A stretch of DNA of 64,000 bases from Geovibrio ferrireducens (GTDB taxonomy: Bacteria > Chrysiogenota > Deferribacteres > Deferribacterales > Geovibrionaceae): positions 1 through 64,000 of the forward strand of contig NZ_JAJAPB010000014.1 of the NCBI RefSeq assembly GCF_026226615.1. The letters run 5' to 3'. The position numbers and the translations under genes are program-made. Below, in pieces: positions 2,329-46,805 of this stretch (its first letter is position 1; each line of letters opens with the position of its first letter). The notes beneath the pieces were generated by a model, which saw only the letters and a list, made by a program, of their open reading frames with translations, made no database searches and had not been told where the DNA came from.

Positions 2329-3838
2329 AAAGTACCTTCATCTCCAGTTCAACGGGAATACCGAATGTTTCAAGGAACATACTCTTTTTCTGGTCAAACC
2401 CCAGTTTTTCCAGATACGCATGCTTTCTGGTTCTTGCTTTTATTATTATCCTGCTGCTCAGCACCTCAACATCCACACTCTCCACAAGCTGCATGTGGCT
2501 TGTATCCAGCGAGTCCGCTATGCGCAGAATGCTCACCAGCTTTCTGATGGTAAGCTGTGTTTCCATATTCAGATACGAAAGTCTCGTCTCTGCGGTTTCA
2601 TCCGTGCCCACCCTGTGCATGAGGACAAGGAAGGCGATTATCTTTATCTGCTCCTGATCCAGGCCGGGCATGTCAAAAGCCTTAGCTATGTAATACGAGT
2701 GCTCATGGTGCATTTTTGCATCAATATAATAGCCTATGTCATGGAGAATCGCCGCCGCTTCAAGGAGCATCCTCTCGTTCATGCCGAGGTTGTGGAGATC
2801 GCCCAAGGCATCGAAAATCTGAACGGAGTAGTCGGTCACCACTTTAGAGTGGGGCTCGTCAAAGTTATAGCGTCTGCCCAGATGATAAAGCGTGTTGCGG
2901 AGCCTGCCCCTGAAACCGTTGTCGCGTATATTGTTTGAGTAATACCTCGTGAGCACGTTGGGGAACGACTTGCGGCTGAACTGCACCTTGTCCGTACCCA
3001 CAAACTGCATAAGGCGCAGATAAGTCTCAAGCATGGGCACAAGCACCTTCGCCTCGCTTATCCTTATGCCCAGCATGGTCATGTTCTCCTGAGAGGTCTT
3101 GTCCTTAACTCTTTCGTAAAGCTCCTCAAGCTTTGTGCGGTGGAAATAGTTCTCCTTCGGGTCGAAGATGAACTGGAGGGTGTTTACCGAACTGCCGGAG
3201 CACACCAGATATTTTATCTTAGGCGAACCACCGAGGGACGAGTTTATGGTGTTGAACATTGTCTCCACATACTGGTTATACGCCTTGTACCTGCTGTGTA
3301 TGGGTATTCCCTTGAAAAGCTGGCGCAGACGCAGACTGCCGTATGGGAGTGAGCCGGAGAAAATGCTTGTGTCGTCCTTAAGTATGTTTATGGATACGTT
3401 GCCGCTTGAGATATTGGCGAACAGAACACCCCTTTTCTCGTAGCTCTCAAAGTTTTTTATGTCGTTCTTAACGCCGATGTATTTTATGTATATCTCATCC
3501 GAAGGCTCAATAACATCAAGCTTAAGCCCTGTCTTGTTCATCACATGGTCTATGAGGAAATAGCGGTTGCGCGCCTCCCTCACTCCGCTGGTGCAGACGC
3601 ATTTGTAGTTTTTCTTTATGCCGTACTCATCCAGCTTATGGCGGAACATCTGTAATATATTCGTTGCCTTGTAAACACTGTCCAGCGTTATGTAGCCCTT
3701 GGTGAAGGTGTCCTTGCCGAGACCGAGGGGCTTCACCAGAGTTTCCATTATCCGCTCCTGCCCTTCATTAAACTCGGAGATCTGCATGCGGAAAGCGCTG
3801 GCGCCTATGTTAATCGTTGCAAAAAGACCGTTTTTCAT
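2321..3838 (-). CDS. Degenerate Ppx/GppA-like protein with HD domain
   Basis: 505 residues with the fold of exopolyphosphatase/pppGpp phosphohydrolase followed by a C-terminal HD domain. The ASKHA phosphate-binding motifs are eroded compared with the intact paralogue next door: DIGSNT is NIGASA (residues 10-15), the SGEEEA catalytic-glutamate segment is EPSDEI, and DIGGGS is NISSGN. The HD motif (ILHDIGYYID, then HHEHSYYI) is kept. I infer that polyphosphate or (p)ppGpp hydrolysis in the N-terminal lobe is lost, leaving a regulatory partner or an HD phosphohydrolase. It overlaps the upstream ppx by 4 bp and ppk1 by 8 bp, so the three products are likely made in step. Confidence 0.85.
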   Translation of the reverse strand: MKNGLFATINIGASAFRMQISEFNEGQERIMETLVKPLGLGKDTFTKGYITLDSVYKATNILQMFRHKLDEYGIKKNYKCVCTSGVREARNRYFLIDHVMNKTGLKLDVIEPSDEIYIKYIGVKNDIKNFESYEKRGVLFANISSGNVSINILKDDTSIFSGSLPYGSLRLRQLFKGIPIHSRYKAYNQYVETMFNTINSSLGGSPKIKYLVCSGSSVNTLQFIFDPKENYFHRTKLEELYERVKDKTSQENMTMLGIRISEAKVLVPMLETYLRLMQFVGTDKVQFSRKSFPNVLTRYYSNNIRDNGFRGRLRNTLYHLGRRYNFDEPHSKVVTDYSVQIFDALGDLHNLGMNERMLLEAAAILHDIGYYIDAKMHHEHSYYIAKAFDMPGLDQEQIKIIAFLVLMHRVGTDETAETRLSYLNMETQLTIRKLVSILRIADSLDTSHMQLVESVDVEVLSSRIIIKARTRKHAYLEKLGFDQKKSMFLETFGIPVELEMKVLYE

Positions 3839-5358
3839 AGAATAGCCAGCTCCTTACCGCTTATCTCTTCCAGAAGGTCCTTTTTCATCTCGAACTTTTT
3901 CTTTTCAAGGGAAAGGTTGTACTCGGAAACAAGCTTAATCTCTATCTTCTTGGGCTTAACATGCACTTCCACATCCCTCACCAGAGACTTGTGCGATCTG
4001 TCCAGCCCGTCCGCAGCGCGGAGAACGGCGCTCATTGCCGCTGTTTTGTGCCGGTCGGCCTCGCCCATCATATTAAAAAGCCTGTGGGATGAGCGGGGCG
4101 GGCTCTTGCGGTGGTATCTGGCGATGTTGCCTATCATGTTTATTTCATCGTGGTTGTAGCCCATGAGGTCGGAGTTCATTATAAGGTACTGCGAATGTTT
4201 ATGGTGCTTGGAGTATGAAATATAGTTGCCTATGTCATGCAGAAGGGAGGCAGCCTCAAGCACAGGCCAGTCGCTTTTTTCAAGACCGAGCTCAGCGTAA
4301 AGCCCGTCGAACATCTTTTTACAGAGCTTTGTCACCTGCCTTGCGTGGCGCTCCTCAAAGGTGAACTTGTTGCCTATCTCTATGAGTCTGGCATGGCGGA
4401 TATTGTCCATATTCTGCTGAAAAGGGAGCTCAAGCCCCATCTTGTTTATGGTGTCTATGGTGAGTCCGCTTCTCAGTCCGCCGCTGAGGGTGTAGAGCCC
4501 TTCGCCGTCGGTCTCTTCCAGTACGGCATCCACCTGCATGGCGGCAGCCAGAATAATATCCGCCCTTTTCTCCTCCATGCCGGGAATCTGTATGCGCTCA
4601 CTCATGGTTTTATTTTTTATATCATTTATCAGCTTTTTGAGGTGCTTACGCTCAAGGTATTTTACTGTTCTGTCAGCCCTCTGGCCGCCTGTCAGGTAAT
4701 GGATTGTGGAAAGGTTGCCCATTGAGCCGCCGGTGCAGATAACCAGATCGATGGATTTGGGCAGCTTTAACCTGCGAACCTCTTTCACAAGGAAATCCTT
4801 CAATGTCTGGTACTCTGAGTTGGTCACAGGGTCGTTTTTGAAAAACATTTTGGTCAGCCTGTTGCAGCCCAGCTCCACACTGTGCGCTTTTTCAAGCCTT
4901 CCTCTGTTCACAATGGAATATTCCGCGCTGCCGCCGCCTATATCCAGCACAAGGGCGTGGTACTTGCTTATCTCAAAATTTGCCGAAGCAGCGATGAAGG
5001 TATAGCGCGCCTCCTCCTCGCCGCTGATTATCTCAACGCCGAAGCCGCAGGTGTCCATCACCTTCTGAATAACTTCGCTGTAGTTTGATGCCGCCCTGAA
5101 TGAGGCTGTTGCCACAGCCCGGATCTGGTGCACCTTCCAGTTGTCTATTATTGCGCGCACCTCTTTCAGGCTCTGCAAAAGTCTGGCGAGGGCGGGCTCT
5201 GTAATCATTCCGGACTCGAACACCTCATCGCCGAGGCGCACTGATTCCTTGTATTCTTCAAGAACCCTGTAGCTCTTATCCTTAACCTGTGAAACCTGGA
5301 GGCGGACAGTGTTGCTTCCTATGTCCACCACGGCTATGTTTATTCCGTTTCCTAACAT
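3835..5358 (-). CDS. ppx: Exopolyphosphatase / guanosine pentaphosphatase (Ppx/GppA) with HD domain
   Basis: 507 residues. Motifs for the family are intact: VVDIGSNTVRLQV near the N-terminus, the SGEEEARYTF segment with the catalytic glutamate, and LDIGGGSAEYSI for phosphate binding. A C-terminal HD domain follows (LLHDIGNYISYSKHHKHSQYL). It should remove terminal phosphates from polyphosphate or convert pppGpp to ppGpp; sequence alone does not separate the two. It is followed with 4-bp overlap by a degenerate paralogue, which suggests the two form a heterodimer. An 84-bp gap separates it from parA upstream, so an internal promoter is possible. Confidence 0.92.
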   Translation of the reverse strand: MLGNGINIAVVDIGSNTVRLQVSQVKDKSYRVLEEYKESVRLGDEVFESGMITEPALARLLQSLKEVRAIIDNWKVHQIRAVATASFRAASNYSEVIQKVMDTCGFGVEIISGEEEARYTFIAASANFEISKYHALVLDIGGGSAEYSIVNRGRLEKAHSVELGCNRLTKMFFKNDPVTNSEYQTLKDFLVKEVRRLKLPKSIDLVICTGGSMGNLSTIHYLTGGQRADRTVKYLERKHLKKLINDIKNKTMSERIQIPGMEEKRADIILAAAMQVDAVLEETDGEGLYTLSGGLRSGLTIDTINKMGLELPFQQNMDNIRHARLIEIGNKFTFEERHARQVTKLCKKMFDGLYAELGLEKSDWPVLEAASLLHDIGNYISYSKHHKHSQYLIMNSDLMGYNHDEINMIGNIARYHRKSPPRSSHRLFNMMGEADRHKTAAMSAVLRAADGLDRSHKSLVRDVEVHVKPKKIEIKLVSEYNLSLEKKKFEMKKDLLEEISGKELAIL

Positions 5359-5442
5359 TGATACAGCTACCCCGGAATTACGAAATTTGTATGAGTCACA
5401 TTACATTACAATACCAGTGTTTGTAACCATTTTAAGACGATT

Positions 5443-40970: not shown

Positions 40971-41801
40971 ATGCTTTTGAAACTTACTCTTACCGCAACT
41001 GAAGTACCGGTCATTTTCAGAAACAGAATAGCCGAAATCATTAAATCCGCCGCTGAAACAGGCTATGAATCGCTGGGGATGGGGATTACTGATAAAAGTT
41101 TTAAGTTTTTCACCTTTAATCTGGCCTTTTCCAGGGACAGATTCAGGAAGGAACCGATCGTTTTTGACAACAGTTTCGAGGTTCAGGACACTGTATTTCA
41201 GATACCTGAAAACAAATTTGTGACCCTTTACATAAGCAGCCCCTATGAGAAATTTCTTCAGGCTGTTCAGGAAGGATTTGAGAAAAAGAAGGATATTGAC
41301 TTCTCCCGCGGCGGGCAGATCCTTGTAGGCGGCAAAAAGCTCACCTATATGCTTGAAAACTCAAAGCTTCTCAACAAACCTTTCGTTATCGAAGGTTCCG
41401 ATGTCACGCTGCACACACATTCACCTGTTCTGCTGGAAGCACTGAACTCAAAGAAACCCATCATCCCCCCTGTGGAGGACGGCTACTGTGAGCTTGAGGT
41501 GTCTGAAAAGGAATATTCTGACAGGCTGGCGGAGATTTCCTCCATGCGTATTTTCGGGATGACAGGAAAATATCCTCAGGAACCCATAGTGTTCAAATCA
41601 GTTAAGCTTCGCAAAACCGTAATTAAGCACACTCTGGACAAATTCAGGGAGAAGACCGGAAAATCGCTTATGATGCTCACAGGGATAACAGGAACATTCA
41701 GGCTCAGCGGTCACCCGGACGACCTGTCTCTCCTTGTGGAATCAGGCATTGGCATAAGAACCACGCAGGGGTTTGGAATGGCTGGTCCGTCAAAGCTTTA
41801 G
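40971..41801 (+). CDS. cas6: Stand-alone Cas6-family CRISPR RNA endoribonuclease
   Basis: 276 residues, usual size. The double RAMP fold is shown by the FKFFTFNLAFS block near residue 45, the ISSP strand at about 88, the basic segment RKTVIKHTLDKF, GTFRLSGHPDDL and the C-terminal glycine-rich loop SGIGIRTTQGFGMAG. Cas6 cuts CRISPR precursor RNA within repeats. No other cas gene and no repeat array lies in this window. The N-terminal position that usually holds the catalytic histidine (LH before FKLFTFS) reads SLGMGITDKSF here, so cleavage may be lost or rely on another residue. It is convergent with the GGDEF-EAL gene, 3 bp away. Confidence 0.85.
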   Translation: MLLKLTLTATEVPVIFRNRIAEIIKSAAETGYESLGMGITDKSFKFFTFNLAFSRDRFRKEPIVFDNSFEVQDTVFQIPENKFVTLYISSPYEKFLQAVQEGFEKKKDIDFSRGGQILVGGKKLTYMLENSKLLNKPFVIEGSDVTLHTHSPVLLEALNSKKPIIPPVEDGYCELEVSEKEYSDRLAEISSMRIFGMTGKYPQEPIVFKSVKLRKTVIKHTLDKFREKTGKSLMMLTGITGTFRLSGHPDDLSLLVESGIGIRTTQGFGMAGPSKL

Positions 41802-41804
41802 AAG

Positions 41805-44800
41805 TTATTTGACGGATTTGATTTCCAGCGAGAAACTCTCATTCCAGCCGGAGATCAGCTTCTCAAACTCTGAGGCAGGTACAGGTCTGCTGAAATAATA
41901 GCCCTGCGCGAGGTCACATTCAAGCTCGCGCAGCAGACGAAGGTGGTTTTCATTTTCCACACCCTCAGCCACAACTTCAATACCTAAGTTCCGCGAAAGC
42001 TGAATAACCGACCGGACTATGGAAAGCGAGTCCTCACTGGTGTCTATACCTTGGGTGAAGGATTTGTCTATCTTTATGGTATCTATGGGTATTCTGTTAA
42101 GATAGCCGATTGAGCTGAACCCTGTGCCGAAATCATCAATGGCAAATGTTATGCCCAGTGAGCTGAGCTTGTCGAGAATATCTCTGGTGTTTTCGGTGTC
42201 CACCATAATTGTGCTTTCCGTTATCTCAAGCTCAAGGTGTCTGGGCTCCATTCCTGTTTCCAAAAGCACATTTTTGACAGACATATACAGGTCTTTCTGA
42301 ATGAACTGCTTTAAGGAAAGGTTCACTGCCACTTTAAGGTTGTGCCCCATGGAGCGCCACCTCATCAGATCTTCGCAGGATTTTTTCAGAACCCACTGAC
42401 CTATTGAAACAATCAGCCCTGTCTCCTCCGCAATGGGGATGAACATATCGGGGAAAATCCTTCCTAACTCAGGGTTATTCCAGCGGATAAGCGACTCCAT
42501 GCCCACCAGTTCCATTGTTCTGAGATTGATTTTCGGCTGGTAATACACCTCAAATTCTCCGTTATCGAGAGCGCGGTTCAGCTTGGTCTCTATCAGCAGC
42601 CTGTCCTTAGCTGTGTCGTTAAAGTCAGTTGTGTATATCTGGAGCATGCCGCGCCCTTTTGACTTGGCGCGGTACATGGCAGCATCGGCATTCTTGGCAA
42701 TGGTGAACACATCCTCGCCGTCATCGGGGTAGAAGCTTAACCCGGCGCTGCATTTCAGGAAAAGCTCGTAATCATCCACCTGAAAGGGTTTTTCAAGCTG
42801 CTTTATTATATTATATGCCACAGTAACGGCTCTGTTCTTGTCTGAGAGGTCTTCAATTATAACTGTGTACTCATCCCCTCCCAGACGGCTTACCGTTATG
42901 CTGTCCCCCACTGTGCCGACTATGCGGTCAGCTATTTTCTGGAGCAGTATATCGCCCACATTGTGGCCGAGGGTATCGTTCACATTTTTGAACCTGTCAA
43001 TATCTATGGAGATCAGCCCCACATAATTGTGGTTCTTTTTTGCCCTTGAGATCGCCATGCTCAGTCTGTCGTGGAACAGATAGCGGTTCGGAAGGTTGGT
43101 AAGCGGATCGTAATGAGACTGATATTTTATCTGCTCTTCGTATTTCTTTCTTTCCGTGATGTCATGCATTACCCCGATGAAGTGGGATATATTGCCGCCG
43201 GAATCCCTTATGCTGGATATGTTCAGAAGCGCCGGGTAAAGCTCGCCGTTCTTGCGCCTGTTCCATATCTCCCCCTGCCATGTGCCGCTCTCCTTGAGGG
43301 CGTTCCAGAGCCCCTTGTAGAAGTGGTTTGCGTGTCTGCCGGAGCGGAGAATGCTGGTCTTGTTCCCTATGGCCTCCTCCTCGCTGTATCCGGTTATGCG
43401 AAGGAAGGCCTTGTTCACGCTGAGGATCACCCCTCTGGTGTTTGTTATATAGATTGCCTCTATGGTATTTTCAAACACCTTTGAAGCAAGCAGCAGTTTC
43501 TCTTCGGATGATTTTCTGTCGGTTATGTCTATGCCCTGCAATACCACACCGAAACTCTTCACGGGAGTGCCTGCCATTGAGAGGTTCCAGAGAATGTATT
43601 TCATCTCTCCCGTTTTGACATTTTTTACCATGGACTCAAAGTTAGACAGAGTATCCGCGCTTCCCGCAGCTTTCAGCAGAAGCTCCTTAAGCCTGTCCCC
43701 GGTGAGACAGGCGAAAATTATCTCAAGATCCTCGCCGACGGCGGAGGATTCGCTTATTCCGGAAAGCTCTTCCATCGCTTTATTGAAGATTACTATTTTA
43801 TTTTCCGTGTCCCAGGCGATAAGCGGAACCTTGGCAAACCCAAGGAAATTGCTGAGATAGGCCTGAGTTTCCCGAAGCTCACGGTTCATTGAGGAAACAG
43901 CCGCACCGAGCCTGTTGAACTCCTCCACCGGGGTGGGGGCAAAGTCATCGGTACTGCCGGAAACGCTTATGCGGTGGGTATAATCTATCAGGTAAATAAG
44001 TGAGCGCGCAGTGATTCTGTGAAAACCGTAAACCGATACAGCGGTCATCAGGATGATGAGCAGCACGGCTGTTGCCGCTCTGCCTGTAATCTGTTTTTTC
44101 ATAAGAGCAAGGGACTGGTTGTCAGTAAGCTGATAAATCATCAGCGGCGTGTCGCTCCCCTTAAGCTCAAGGGGTCTGCAATATGCTGAGAAACCGCCCT
44201 TAACAGGAAACACCTGCCCGGCATCAGCGCATGCAGCCGGCATGAACCGGCTGAGATCAAATCCGTCAGAGGCTGATATAATCTGTCCGGCGGTGACAAA
44301 GGCTATGCCTGCGCCCGCATCTGAGGCCGCTTTTCTGATTACATCGGGAGCGCCGTTGATTATTCTGCCTATATATATTTTTCCGAGAACCTCACCGTTT
44401 GCGGGGTTGCTGACAGGGGTGTAACCCAGAATAAGATTCAGAGGTGCAGTTCCGCTCTCTTCCGCTACCGAGTAAACCGAACCGGAAGCATCCACGCTGT
44501 CGCCGCTCTTCCGGAGAAAGCTGATAATTCCGTCAGTATTGAAGAAGGCTGAACCGACATTAATCACCCTTGTGCCGTCAAAGGAGACAAAGATCATGAT
44601 GTCCAGATTTTCCCCGGCAGCCAGATCGTATATTGATGAAAAACCGTTTTTGAAATTCTCTGATTCTATATCAGGATTTCTCGCAAGAAGCTGCCTGACA
44701 TTCACCCTGAGATCACGCGTTACCCAGCCGAGGTGCTCAAGTTCCTTTTCAAAAACCATGGATGCGGTATCATGGTTTCTTTTCAGAAGCCTTGACTGTT

Positions 44801-44927
44801 CATGTTTTATGATGGTTCCGGCATCCACACTGCTCCAGACGAGAATAACAACCGCGAGCACCACTGAAAAACAGGTGAGAAGCAAGGCCAGAAAGGAGGA
44901 TATTTTTACAGACTTTATCCTATTCAT
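41805..44927 (-). CDS. LuxQ-like membrane sensor fused to PAS-PAS-GGDEF-EAL
   Basis: About 1040 residues. It has a membrane segment (11-31), a periplasmic sensor (about 35-280), a second membrane segment (283-303), HAMP, PAS (about 355-470), PAS (about 477-595), GGDEF (600-760, signature RLGGDEY at 681-687) and EAL (from about 775, ESL variant; DDFGTG intact). The first ~385 residues resemble Vibrio LuxQ: GYTPVSNPANGEVLGKIYI, DTPLMIYQLTDNQSLAL and PVEEFNRLGAAVSSM have close LuxQ counterparts. The kinase and receiver of LuxQ are replaced by c-di-GMP enzymes. ATG 44927 overlaps the luxP stop by 8 bp; ATG 44951 is the alternative. Confidence 0.9.
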   Translation of the reverse strand: MNRIKSVKISSFLALLLTCFSVVLAVVILVWSSVDAGTIIKHEQSRLLKRNHDTASMVFEKELEHLGWVTRDLRVNVRQLLARNPDIESENFKNGFSSIYDLAAGENLDIMIFVSFDGTRVINVGSAFFNTDGIISFLRKSGDSVDASGSVYSVAEESGTAPLNLILGYTPVSNPANGEVLGKIYIGRIINGAPDVIRKAASDAGAGIAFVTAGQIISASDGFDLSRFMPAACADAGQVFPVKGGFSAYCRPLELKGSDTPLMIYQLTDNQSLALMKKQITGRAATAVLLIILMTAVSVYGFHRITARSLIYLIDYTHRISVSGSTDDFAPTPVEEFNRLGAAVSSMNRELRETQAYLSNFLGFAKVPLIAWDTENKIVIFNKAMEELSGISESSAVGEDLEIIFACLTGDRLKELLLKAAGSADTLSNFESMVKNVKTGEMKYILWNLSMAGTPVKSFGVVLQGIDITDRKSSEEKLLLASKVFENTIEAIYITNTRGVILSVNKAFLRITGYSEEEAIGNKTSILRSGRHANHFYKGLWNALKESGTWQGEIWNRRKNGELYPALLNISSIRDSGGNISHFIGVMHDITERKKYEEQIKYQSHYDPLTNLPNRYLFHDRLSMAISRAKKNHNYVGLISIDIDRFKNVNDTLGHNVGDILLQKIADRIVGTVGDSITVSRLGGDEYTVIIEDLSDKNRAVTVAYNIIKQLEKPFQVDDYELFLKCSAGLSFYPDDGEDVFTIAKNADAAMYRAKSKGRGMLQIYTTDFNDTAKDRLLIETKLNRALDNGEFEVYYQPKINLRTMELVGMESLIRWNNPELGRIFPDMFIPIAEETGLIVSIGQWVLKKSCEDLMRWRSMGHNLKVAVNLSLKQFIQKDLYMSVKNVLLETGMEPRHLELEITESTIMVDTENTRDILDKLSSLGITFAIDDFGTGFSSIGYLNRIPIDTIKIDKSFTQGIDTSEDSLSIVRSVIQLSRNLGIEVVAEGVENENHLRLLRELECDLAQGYYFSRPVPASEFEKLISGWNESFSLEIKSVK

Positions 44928-46023
44928 TTTCACCGGAATACCTGAACGCATTCATTCTGAGATTTTTTATTCTATCTGCACTGTCTGCGGAAGTAACAAG
45001 GCTGAAATCCCCTGAAAACACAGTCGGAACCTCTTTCTCCCTGCCTGAGACGACAAACTTCACCGCCTCGGCCGCAGCTACGCTGCTGTCATCATTCATC
45101 CGCATCACCGTAAGGTCAAGTTCTTTTTCTGAAATAAGTTTGAGCTCAGCGTCCCCGCCGCCCCATCCGTTCAGGATCACCTTATCCGCGCGGAGCTCAC
45201 GGAGAGCTTCCGCGGCTCCGACGGCTATATCTGTGGAGCATGCGAAAATAAAGCCTATATCAGGGTATTTTCTGATTATCTCCTTTGTTGCCGAATGTGC
45301 TTTTTCTCTGTCAAAGTCGGTTATATATTCGGCTTTTCCGGTGTACTCCCCGTGTCTGCGGAGCCTTTCCCGGAAGCCTTTTGTTCTCAGCCATCCCACC
45401 TCGCCTGCGGAGCAGTTAAGAACGGCATATGACGTGTTTCCGGTGCTCATGGCGGCCATGGCATCCGCCAGCATACCTGAACCGGTCATATGATCAAAGC
45501 CGGTATAAATCAGCGGCTGTTTCGGCTCCCACTCTTTAAGAGGCGTGGTGATGTTCTGGACAATAATTTTATGTTTTCCTTCAAACAGCAGTCTGCCCAC
45601 AGCCCTGCGCATCTGAGCGGAATCAGCGGAGACAATGATGAAATCCGCCCCTTCCGCTGCGGCCTGTGCAAGCTGGGCTAGCTGAAGGCGGGTGTCCCCT
45701 GAGGGTCTGCTGAAATATGTCGCCATGGTGTAATTTACATTAAGCTCGTTCAGCCTTTTTTCCAAAACCTTAACGCTCCTCCGCCAGTAGTCTGATGCTT
45801 GCAGAGCGGGGTAGACAACGGCTATCTTCACAGGCCTTACATTCATAGCCTTGAGCGGTTCGGGCTGGCTGCGCACGATGTTTACAAAATGGTCGTATTT
45901 CCATGCCTGTTCAGGATGTTTAAGCATGTACTCCCTGACAGTGTAGAATGACTGTTCAGAGCCTAAAACAGGGAAAGACACAAAAAGAAAAAGAAGAAGA
46001 AAGAGAGCGCGCCCTCCCTTCAT
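44920..46023 (-). CDS. luxP: LuxP-type autoinducer-2 binding periplasmic protein
   Basis: 367 residues with a Sec signal peptide (5-20). It is very close to Vibrio LuxP in wording: NITTPLKEWEPKQP, YTGFDHMTGSGMLA, NGWGGGDAEL, VMRMNDDSS and VPTVFSGDF. The residues known to hold boronated AI-2 in V. harveyi LuxP (Q77, S79, W82, N159, R215, T266, D267, W289, R310) appear here as Gln75, Ser77, Trp80, Asn157, Arg213, Thr264, Asp265, Trp287 and Arg308, all at a constant offset. It starts one base after the receiver gene and overlaps the sensor gene, so ligand signal should pass to that sensor. No luxS is visible. Confidence 0.93.
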   Translation of the reverse strand: MKGGRALFLLLFLFVSFPVLGSEQSFYTVREYMLKHPEQAWKYDHFVNIVRSQPEPLKAMNVRPVKIAVVYPALQASDYWRRSVKVLEKRLNELNVNYTMATYFSRPSGDTRLQLAQLAQAAAEGADFIIVSADSAQMRRAVGRLLFEGKHKIIVQNITTPLKEWEPKQPLIYTGFDHMTGSGMLADAMAAMSTGNTSYAVLNCSAGEVGWLRTKGFRERLRRHGEYTGKAEYITDFDREKAHSATKEIIRKYPDIGFIFACSTDIAVGAAEALRELRADKVILNGWGGGDAELKLISEKELDLTVMRMNDDSSVAAAEAVKFVVSGREKEVPTVFSGDFSLVTSADSADRIKNLRMNAFRYSGENE

Positions 46024-46024
46024 A

Positions 46025-46384
46025 TCACACCAGCTCCTGAATTTTAGCAATCAGCTCGTTCACCATCAGGGGTTTGGTGAAATAACCTTCCACCCCAAGC
46101 TCTTCCGCTCTATTACGGTCAAACCTGTCACTGGATGCAGTGAGAACTATCACATGAACATCGGGAAGACTTTTACGGATTTCCTCTATCATATCAAGCC
46201 CTTCCATATGAGGCATGCGCAAGTCGGTCAGGATCACATCAGGCCTCACGGCCAGTGCTGTTTCAAGCCCTTTTCTGCCGTCATGGGCACTGTAAACCCT
46301 GCTGAAAGTACGTTTCATCCTGAGTTCAAGAGCTCCGGCCACAGCCGGATCATCCTCTACAATCAGTACAGATATATCCTTCAT
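46025..46384 (-). CDS. Single-domain response regulator
   Basis: 119 residues, a receiver only: VLIVEDDPAVAG, acceptor aspartate in VILTDLRMPHMEG, Thr in IVLTASSD and Lys in YFTKPLMV. Its stop codon is one base before the luxP start, so it belongs to the same transcript. There is no output domain, so it may act on a partner protein. No kinase is in this operon, so its phosphodonor is encoded elsewhere. Confidence 0.9.
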   Translation of the reverse strand: MKDISVLIVEDDPAVAGALELRMKRTFSRVYSAHDGRKGLETALAVRPDVILTDLRMPHMEGLDMIEEIRKSLPDVHVIVLTASSDRFDRNRAEELGVEGYFTKPLMVNELIAKIQELV

Positions 46385-46511: not shown

Positions 46512-46805
46512 TCAGAGTTCGCTCACGCGGAAAATTCCGTGCAGTTCGAGCTCTTCGAGCAGGGCAATGAGTTTTTTGTCCCCGGCGAGAATCCGGAGAT
46601 CGATTTTATCAACATTAATAAGTTTAAGCATGAAGCCGATCATGGAAGATGTTATCGACACTGAATCAGTAAAGCACACATCAATGCTGCGGGCTCCTTT
46701 GTCTGCAAGCTCCTGAAGGGCGTTCTTCACAGCCAGATAGTCGTCTATGCTTTTGATGTTTCCTTTTATTTTAACACTGTTCTCTTCAACGCTTACAGCT
46801 ACCAT
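46512..46805 (-). CDS. STAS-like domain protein
   Basis: 97 residues with the alpha/beta pattern of STAS anti-sigma-factor antagonists: VEENSVKIKGNIKSIDDY, then VCFTDSVSITSSMIGFMLKL, where the second serine of TSS is at the usual phosphorylation place. It may take part in a partner-switching pathway. It is 127 bp upstream of the receiver-luxP-sensor operon on the same strand and may belong to the same regulatory group. No anti-sigma kinase is in the window. Confidence 0.72.
   Translation of the reverse strand: MVAVSVEENSVKIKGNIKSIDDYLAVKNALQELADKGARSIDVCFTDSVSITSSMIGFMLKLINVDKIDLRILAGDKKLIALLEELELHGIFRVSEL

Follow-up and report, generated by a model that had tools for sequence, protein, structure and literature searches.

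In its textbook form, LuxP signalling belongs to Vibrio, runs through a phosphorelay and reports autoinducer-2 (AI-2) that the cells themselves produce. What, then, does a LuxP homologue do in Geovibrio ferrireducens, where its gene overlaps that of a sensor ending in GGDEF and EAL domains? We analysed this locus in a stretch of 64,000 nucleotides (hereafter the window; RefSeq assembly GCF_026226615.1, contig NZ_JAJAPB010000014.1, positions 1 to 64,000), taken from a genome of 2.97 Mb that is rated 100% complete. The luxP gene (44920..46023, minus strand) encodes a homologue of the periplasmic AI-2-binding protein, 367 amino acids long with an N-terminal signal peptide, and the luxQ-like gene for a sensor with a predicted cyclic di-GMP (c-di-GMP) output (41805..44933, minus strand) encodes 1042 amino acids when read from a GTG at 44933. 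An alternative ATG at 44951 (41805-44951) would give 1048 amino acids, but comparison with relatives suggests that the GTG is the start. With the GTG start the two genes overlap by 14 nt, identically in both congeners, and in the window and the congeners neither gene is disrupted, the two overlap, and identity is 72-87%; across the LuxP loci compared, luxP and the sensor gene are adjacent or overlapping, frequently by 4-14 nt. The initial annotation, made from the letters of this DNA, had proposed just such an overlapping LuxP/sensor pair, and both genes indeed lie where it placed them. We estimate at roughly three in four the probability that they encode an AI-2 receptor made of two proteins, with c-di-GMP turnover as its output.

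The receptor can be assigned with some precision. Against V. harveyi LuxP, phmmer aligned residues 26-364 of the window protein, its whole mature length, with E=6e-88 and 298 bits, the next relatives in the PDB being sugar-binding proteins at 3e-10 or worse (43 bits). The residues that we take to be the AI-2 and borate contacts of V. harveyi LuxP, Q77, S79, W82, D136, N159, R215, T266, W289 and R310 (Q77, W82, R215 and R310 are backed by the literature), correspond to Q75, S77, W80, D134, N157, R213, T264, W287 and R308 in the window protein. All nine are thus kept at a constant two-residue offset, as had been claimed and as is now seen in an alignment of homologues; V. harveyi T134 is replaced by serine. 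This alignment comprised 106 homologues, 97 genuine LuxPs and nine LuxP-like paralogues (L140-L148), and the eight core contacts were intact in 96 of the 97 genuine LuxPs, whereas the paralogues had lost most of them and had different neighbours, indicating that the pocket is a trait of the LuxP group and not a mere feature of the fold. The paralogues come from related gammaproteobacteria, and seven of the nine stand before a gene for a protein of 850-885 amino acids; three of these partners were scanned against Pfam and gave no match at E<=0.01. In a LuxP tree the window protein clustered with LuxP and apart from the sugar-binding proteins, a placement among which the initial annotation would have counted as a refutation; its sequence-level conditions for refutation were checked, and none of them applied. 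An ordinary ribose-type binding protein was rejected on account of the score gap and the pocket. By its sequence, the window encodes a true LuxP.

We then asked what kind of sensor LuxP is paired with. Pfam finds the domains PAS, PAS, GGDEF and EAL in that order, preceded by a periplasmic domain of the LuxQ-periplasm type (44085..44828, minus strand, bounds approximate) between two predicted transmembrane helices. The first PAS domain (approximately 43500..43820, minus strand) matches Pfam weakly and is covered by the NCBIfam LuxQ_Vibrio model, which aligns to residues 16-487, and the second (43158..43478, minus strand) matches PF00989 with E=1.5e-25. The periplasmic domain of the window protein scored 20.2 bits against PF09308 (LuxQ-periplasm), under the cut-off of 25.7, and four orthologues lay above it (29.6, 30.5, 40.2 and 29.6 bits); 32 of 33 intact GGDEF-EAL partners matched at E<=0.001. 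A phmmer search of the single sensor N-terminus against the PDB gave nothing useful, profiles being required, and an hhalign comparison of six members of the phylum with 13 Vibrionaceae LuxQs returned 99.4% probability (E 1e-21, 280 columns). An AlphaFold2 model of the domain (pLDDT 88.7) was used in a Foldseek search of the PDB, where the top six matches were all LuxQ periplasmic domains from V. cholerae and V. harveyi, a test not fully independent of homology because LuxQ rows were included in the AlphaFold2 alignment. A generic dCACHE domain was considered and set aside: the LuxQ entries outscored every dCACHE chemoreceptor, with dCACHE proteins coming after LuxQ as expected of related folds. 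As judged by profile and predicted fold, the periplasmic domain is homologous to that of LuxQ. The earlier proposal of a LuxQ-like N-terminal half therefore stands for the periplasmic sensor and the first PAS domain, but not for the HAMP domain that it included, which was dropped after Pfam found none at E<=0.001 in any of 33 GGDEF-EAL sensors.

The C-terminal half sets the protein apart. Pfam detected no HisKA, HATPase or receiver domain in the window sensor, which has no phosphodonor domain, and it confirmed the predicted ending in PAS-GGDEF-EAL rather than kinase-receiver; with GGDEF-EAL in place of a histidine kinase and receiver, the sensor is not a LuxQ. The GGDEF domain (42651..43118, minus strand; 148 bits) carries the motif GGDEY, has no RxxD inhibitory site and conserves the metal-site residues, so that its active site is judged intact by motif and its activity is a prediction. 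The EAL domain (41883..42584, minus strand; 253 bits) has the full catalytic set (E-x-L-x-R, N, E, DD, K, E, Q), whose residues are invariant in 33 of 33 intact sensors, the window's included, and the GGDE[F/Y] motif is kept in 27 of the 33 and changed in six (SGDEF, GSDEF, NADEF, NADEY). Since the genome holds 26 GGDEF and 11 EAL domains, the pair would be one input among many.

To see how far this arrangement extends, public genomes were scanned for LuxP relatives, and the best 80 of 308 loci were used. A LuxP with a GGDEF-EAL partner was found in 34 genomes, comprising eight Deferribacterota, 25 Oceanospirillaceae and close kin (Pontibacterium, Neptuniibacter, Marinobacterium, Oceanospirillum and relatives) and one alphaproteobacterium (Stappia); cultured type strains with orthologues are Denitrovibrio acetiphilus, Neptuniibacter caesariensis and Oceanospirillum beijerinckii. 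True LuxP was present in nine of the 51 Deferribacterota genomes searched, next to a PAS-PAS-GGDEF-EAL protein in seven, a GGDEF-EAL protein without PAS in one and a classic kinase-receiver in one. One of the seven, from a Denitrovibrio metagenome-assembled genome (G009, L016), is interrupted by a single in-frame TAA at about 9560, and in D. acetiphilus (G005) a gene in the opposite direction, encoding 466 amino acids and transposase-like by eye, separates luxP and the sensor gene (L015:6561-7961). The pair is genuine, has been conserved and is spread more widely than the initial annotation supposed, and it is not unique to the window genome.

LuxP has other partners elsewhere. Kinase-receiver proteins adjoin it in Vibrionaceae, kinases without a receiver in Kiloniella, Campylobacterota and others, and in Pontibacterium and its relatives a second LuxP has a HisKA_3 kinase next to it. 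Two LuxPs per genome occur in the marine genomes G062 (L024, L246), G487, G708 and G763, one signal with two outputs; usually one LuxP has a GGDEF-EAL or kinase-receiver partner and the other a HisKA_3 kinase. In Marinobacterium jannaschii (L023:7137-8084) LuxP is followed by a protein of 315 amino acids whose sole domain is the LuxQ-type periplasmic one, no output domain being attached. In Desulfococcaceae HSG9 (L022, 5989-9461), LuxP adjoins a protein with a LuxQ-periplasm domain (78 bits), PAS and a SpoIIE phosphatase domain (114 bits), and just upstream (3580-5376) there is a gene whose C-terminal end is similar. The variant is known to us from one example: when 297 genomes of the same phylum were searched, no genome but that one came up; an AI-2-controlled phosphatase, if true, would be a further new output. 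That the remaining partners are histidine kinases or, once, SpoIIE implies that the LuxP/LuxQ sensor is a module that has been combined with various outputs. We consider it fairly probable that LuxP and the periplasmic domain of LuxQ together form a general AI-2 sensor of the plug-in kind, probably fitted several times independently to two histidine-kinase types, GGDEF-EAL and SpoIIE in several phyla and often in hosts without LuxS, and that interspecies listening to AI-2 through c-di-GMP is widespread outside Vibrio.

The phylogenies bear on how the GGDEF-EAL output was acquired. In the LuxP tree the receptors linked to GGDEF-EAL fall in three places (Deferribacterota, Oceanospirillaceae and Stappia). 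In a GGDEF-EAL tree that took in unlinked paralogues, the LuxP-linked units of Deferribacterota and Oceanospirillaceae formed two separate groups (support 92 and 99), with free paralogues beside the Deferribacterota group (support 83). Independent recruitment of the output is thus likely on these sequences, but not proven, because support is only moderate at the deep nodes of the output tree. Within Deferribacterota both trees branch alike, indicating that receptor and sensor travel together.

Where would the signal come from? LuxS (PF02664) is absent from the complete source genome of the window, in which the S-adenosylhomocysteine hydrolase SahH is present, and from every LuxP-bearing Deferribacterota member tested. 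Among the other hosts of the GGDEF-EAL group LuxS is present in Pontibacterium and Marinobacterium and absent in Neptuniibacter, Oceanospirillum and Stappia, so that the pair would sense the cell's own signal in some and listen in the rest. For a host without LuxS the signal would have to come from other species, and this host probably listens to its neighbours' AI-2 via LuxP and c-di-GMP.

In the mechanism that we propose, periplasmic LuxP would bind AI-2, expected as the borated form, and would act in that state on the LuxQ-type periplasmic domain of a sensor dimer; the signal would then cross the membrane and pass through the two PAS domains to GGDEF-EAL, with its intact catalytic motifs, so that AI-2 would directly control how c-di-GMP synthesis and degradation are balanced, without a phosphorelay. 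AI-2 binding by the window LuxP, its contact with the sensor (suggested by gene linkage and by homology to the LuxP-LuxQ complex), the enzymatic activities and the direction of the response are steps that we infer from sequence and by analogy with LuxPQ and with other pairs of a binding protein and a GGDEF-EAL protein. Diguanylate cyclases require two facing GGDEF domains. AI-2 makes the periplasmic LuxPQ assembly asymmetric (PMC5231407), and on this asymmetry, the need for facing GGDEF domains and the better conservation of EAL we base a slight leaning towards cyclase activity being favoured without AI-2 and phosphodiesterase activity with it, in which case AI-2 would lower c-di-GMP.

Several points weigh against a LuxP-dependent AI-2 receptor of this kind: the PF09308 score of the window sensor lies under the cut-off, the fold search is not wholly independent of homology, the case for the pair comes from sequence and predicted fold, and the circuit presupposes a supply of boron and AI-2 in the habitat. 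The pocket, moreover, could take AI-2 mimics such as L-xylosone, which like L-xylulose is an agonist of LuxP (PMC12921845). With the missing LuxS and the membership of LuxP in the ribose-binding superfamily, this is what speaks for a LuxP whose ligand would be a related sugar, a furanone or an AI-2 mimic, the sensor then reporting a nutrient. Yet the pocket is unchanged among proteins only ~40% identical and lost solely in distinct paralogues, and a deferribacterote LuxP (species unnamed in the text) is reported to have retained AI-2 when assayed with a V. harveyi reporter (PMC12268683), which makes a ligand other than AI-2 improbable to us. We give less credence still to a decayed remnant, in which the genes would be neighbours by descent and the circuit no longer working. 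The split pair of D. acetiphilus and the in-frame stop in one sensor would fit decay, but the window and congener copies keep all catalytic and pocket residues in intact, overlapping genes.

The precedents for the direction of the response do not agree. AI-2-bound LuxP might instead silence the phosphodiesterase, so that c-di-GMP rises, as it does when norspermidine-bound NspS acts through MbaA (PMC9578409), the reverse of our prediction; the AI-2 receptors YeaJ and dCACHE likewise raise cyclase activity (PMC7584622; PMC12268683). Against this, ligand-bound ScrB switches ScrC from cyclase to phosphodiesterase (PMC11315295), and AI-2 switches off the kinase state of LuxQ (PMC9578409). We regard a rise in c-di-GMP as a serious contender that falls somewhat short of even odds. 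It is also conceivable, although on balance unlikely, that AI-2 is sensed by a protein that is mainly a phosphodiesterase, its GGDEF domain being regulatory, perhaps together with the receiver protein encoded upstream; this would refine rather than oppose AI-2 control of c-di-GMP. The invariant EAL residues beside a GGDEF motif changed in six of 33 sensors would suit such an enzyme, as would the window motif GGDEY without an inhibitory site and the receiver gene ahead of luxP in two genera, but most sensors, the window's included, retain the GGDEF active-site motif.

That receiver gene (46025..46384, minus strand; Pfam Response_reg, E=7.7e-26) encodes a single-domain response-regulator receiver directly upstream of luxP, holds the same position in L012, L013 and L014 (two genera) and likely belongs to the same operon. 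Further upstream in the same direction, a gene for a 97-amino-acid protein (46512..46805, minus strand), STAS-like by eye and with no significant Pfam match, is conserved in L012 and L013 only (one genus). Through these two proteins the AI-2 operon may be connected to phosphorylation or to partner switching. On the other side of the operon stands cas6 (40971-41801, plus strand; Cas6b-like), which adjoins the LuxP operon in two genera of the family; its copies in the relatives (L012:4048-4878, L013:12226-13074, L014:263-1099) were judged by eye from similar starts. A CRISPR link was ruled out because there are no repeats near cas6 and no Cas1 in the complete genome; for the same reasons cas6 is not part of the LuxP system, and it is a conserved orphan Cas6.

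The pair is not wholly unseen, since the copy of N. caesariensis MED92 was recorded in 2008. Rezzonico and Duffy reported LuxP homologues in luxS-negative Neptuniibacter and some other bacteria, suggested that these listen to others, and described the partner (MED92_04779) of the MED92 LuxP (MED92_04774) as a PAS-containing transcriptional regulator, with GGDEF, EAL and c-di-GMP unmentioned (PMC2561040). In our scan this strain (L058) encodes LuxP and a sensor of 1014 amino acids with GGDEF and EAL, apparently a luxS-negative case of the same kind as the window pair. According to a 2025 survey, LuxP sensory domains of both Proteobacteria and Deferribacterota bind AI-2, and the role given to LuxP there is transport into the cell (PMC12268683). 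The results that we read from a search of full-text literature, most subscription papers and preprints lying outside it, describe no LuxP-GGDEF-EAL pair; the initial annotation, which knew of none, is amended by the 2008 record of a LuxP with a PAS regulator. Judging by the genes, a LuxP head would here be coupled to a second-messenger enzyme, both in anaerobes without AI-2 production of their own and in marine bacteria, some of which do produce it. Two questions become testable: whether AI-2 is truly perceived by bacteria that have no luxS, and by what means a single periplasmic switch can govern a kinase in one protein, a cyclase/phosphodiesterase in another and a phosphatase in a third.

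Among known systems, LuxP-LuxQ of V. harveyi and V. cholerae shares with the window pair an orthologous LuxP with the same pocket, the overlapping order of luxP and sensor gene, and a homologous periplasmic domain with the PAS domain that follows it; the window pair differs in having PAS-GGDEF-EAL instead of histidine kinase-receiver, which implies no phosphorelay, and a host without LuxS. In the latter respect it also departs from the LuxPQ-LuxU-LuxO circuit, in which LuxS is found in the same cell. NspS of V. cholerae belongs to a binding-protein family different from that of LuxP. NspS-MbaA resembles the window pair in that a periplasmic binding protein shares an operon with a c-di-GMP-metabolising membrane receptor, but its ligand is norspermidine (PMC9578409). 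In ScrB-ScrC of V. parahaemolyticus it is likewise a periplasmic binding protein that shifts a membrane protein with GGDEF and EAL from cyclase towards phosphodiesterase activity or back, in response to the S-signal from ScrA of the same operon and not to AI-2 (PMC11315295). Direct control of c-di-GMP by AI-2 has its precedents in YeaJ (GAPES1) and the dCACHE cyclase rpHK1S-Z16 (PMC7584622, PMC12268683), which, unlike the pair described here, are single-protein receptors that bind AI-2 themselves, without LuxP.

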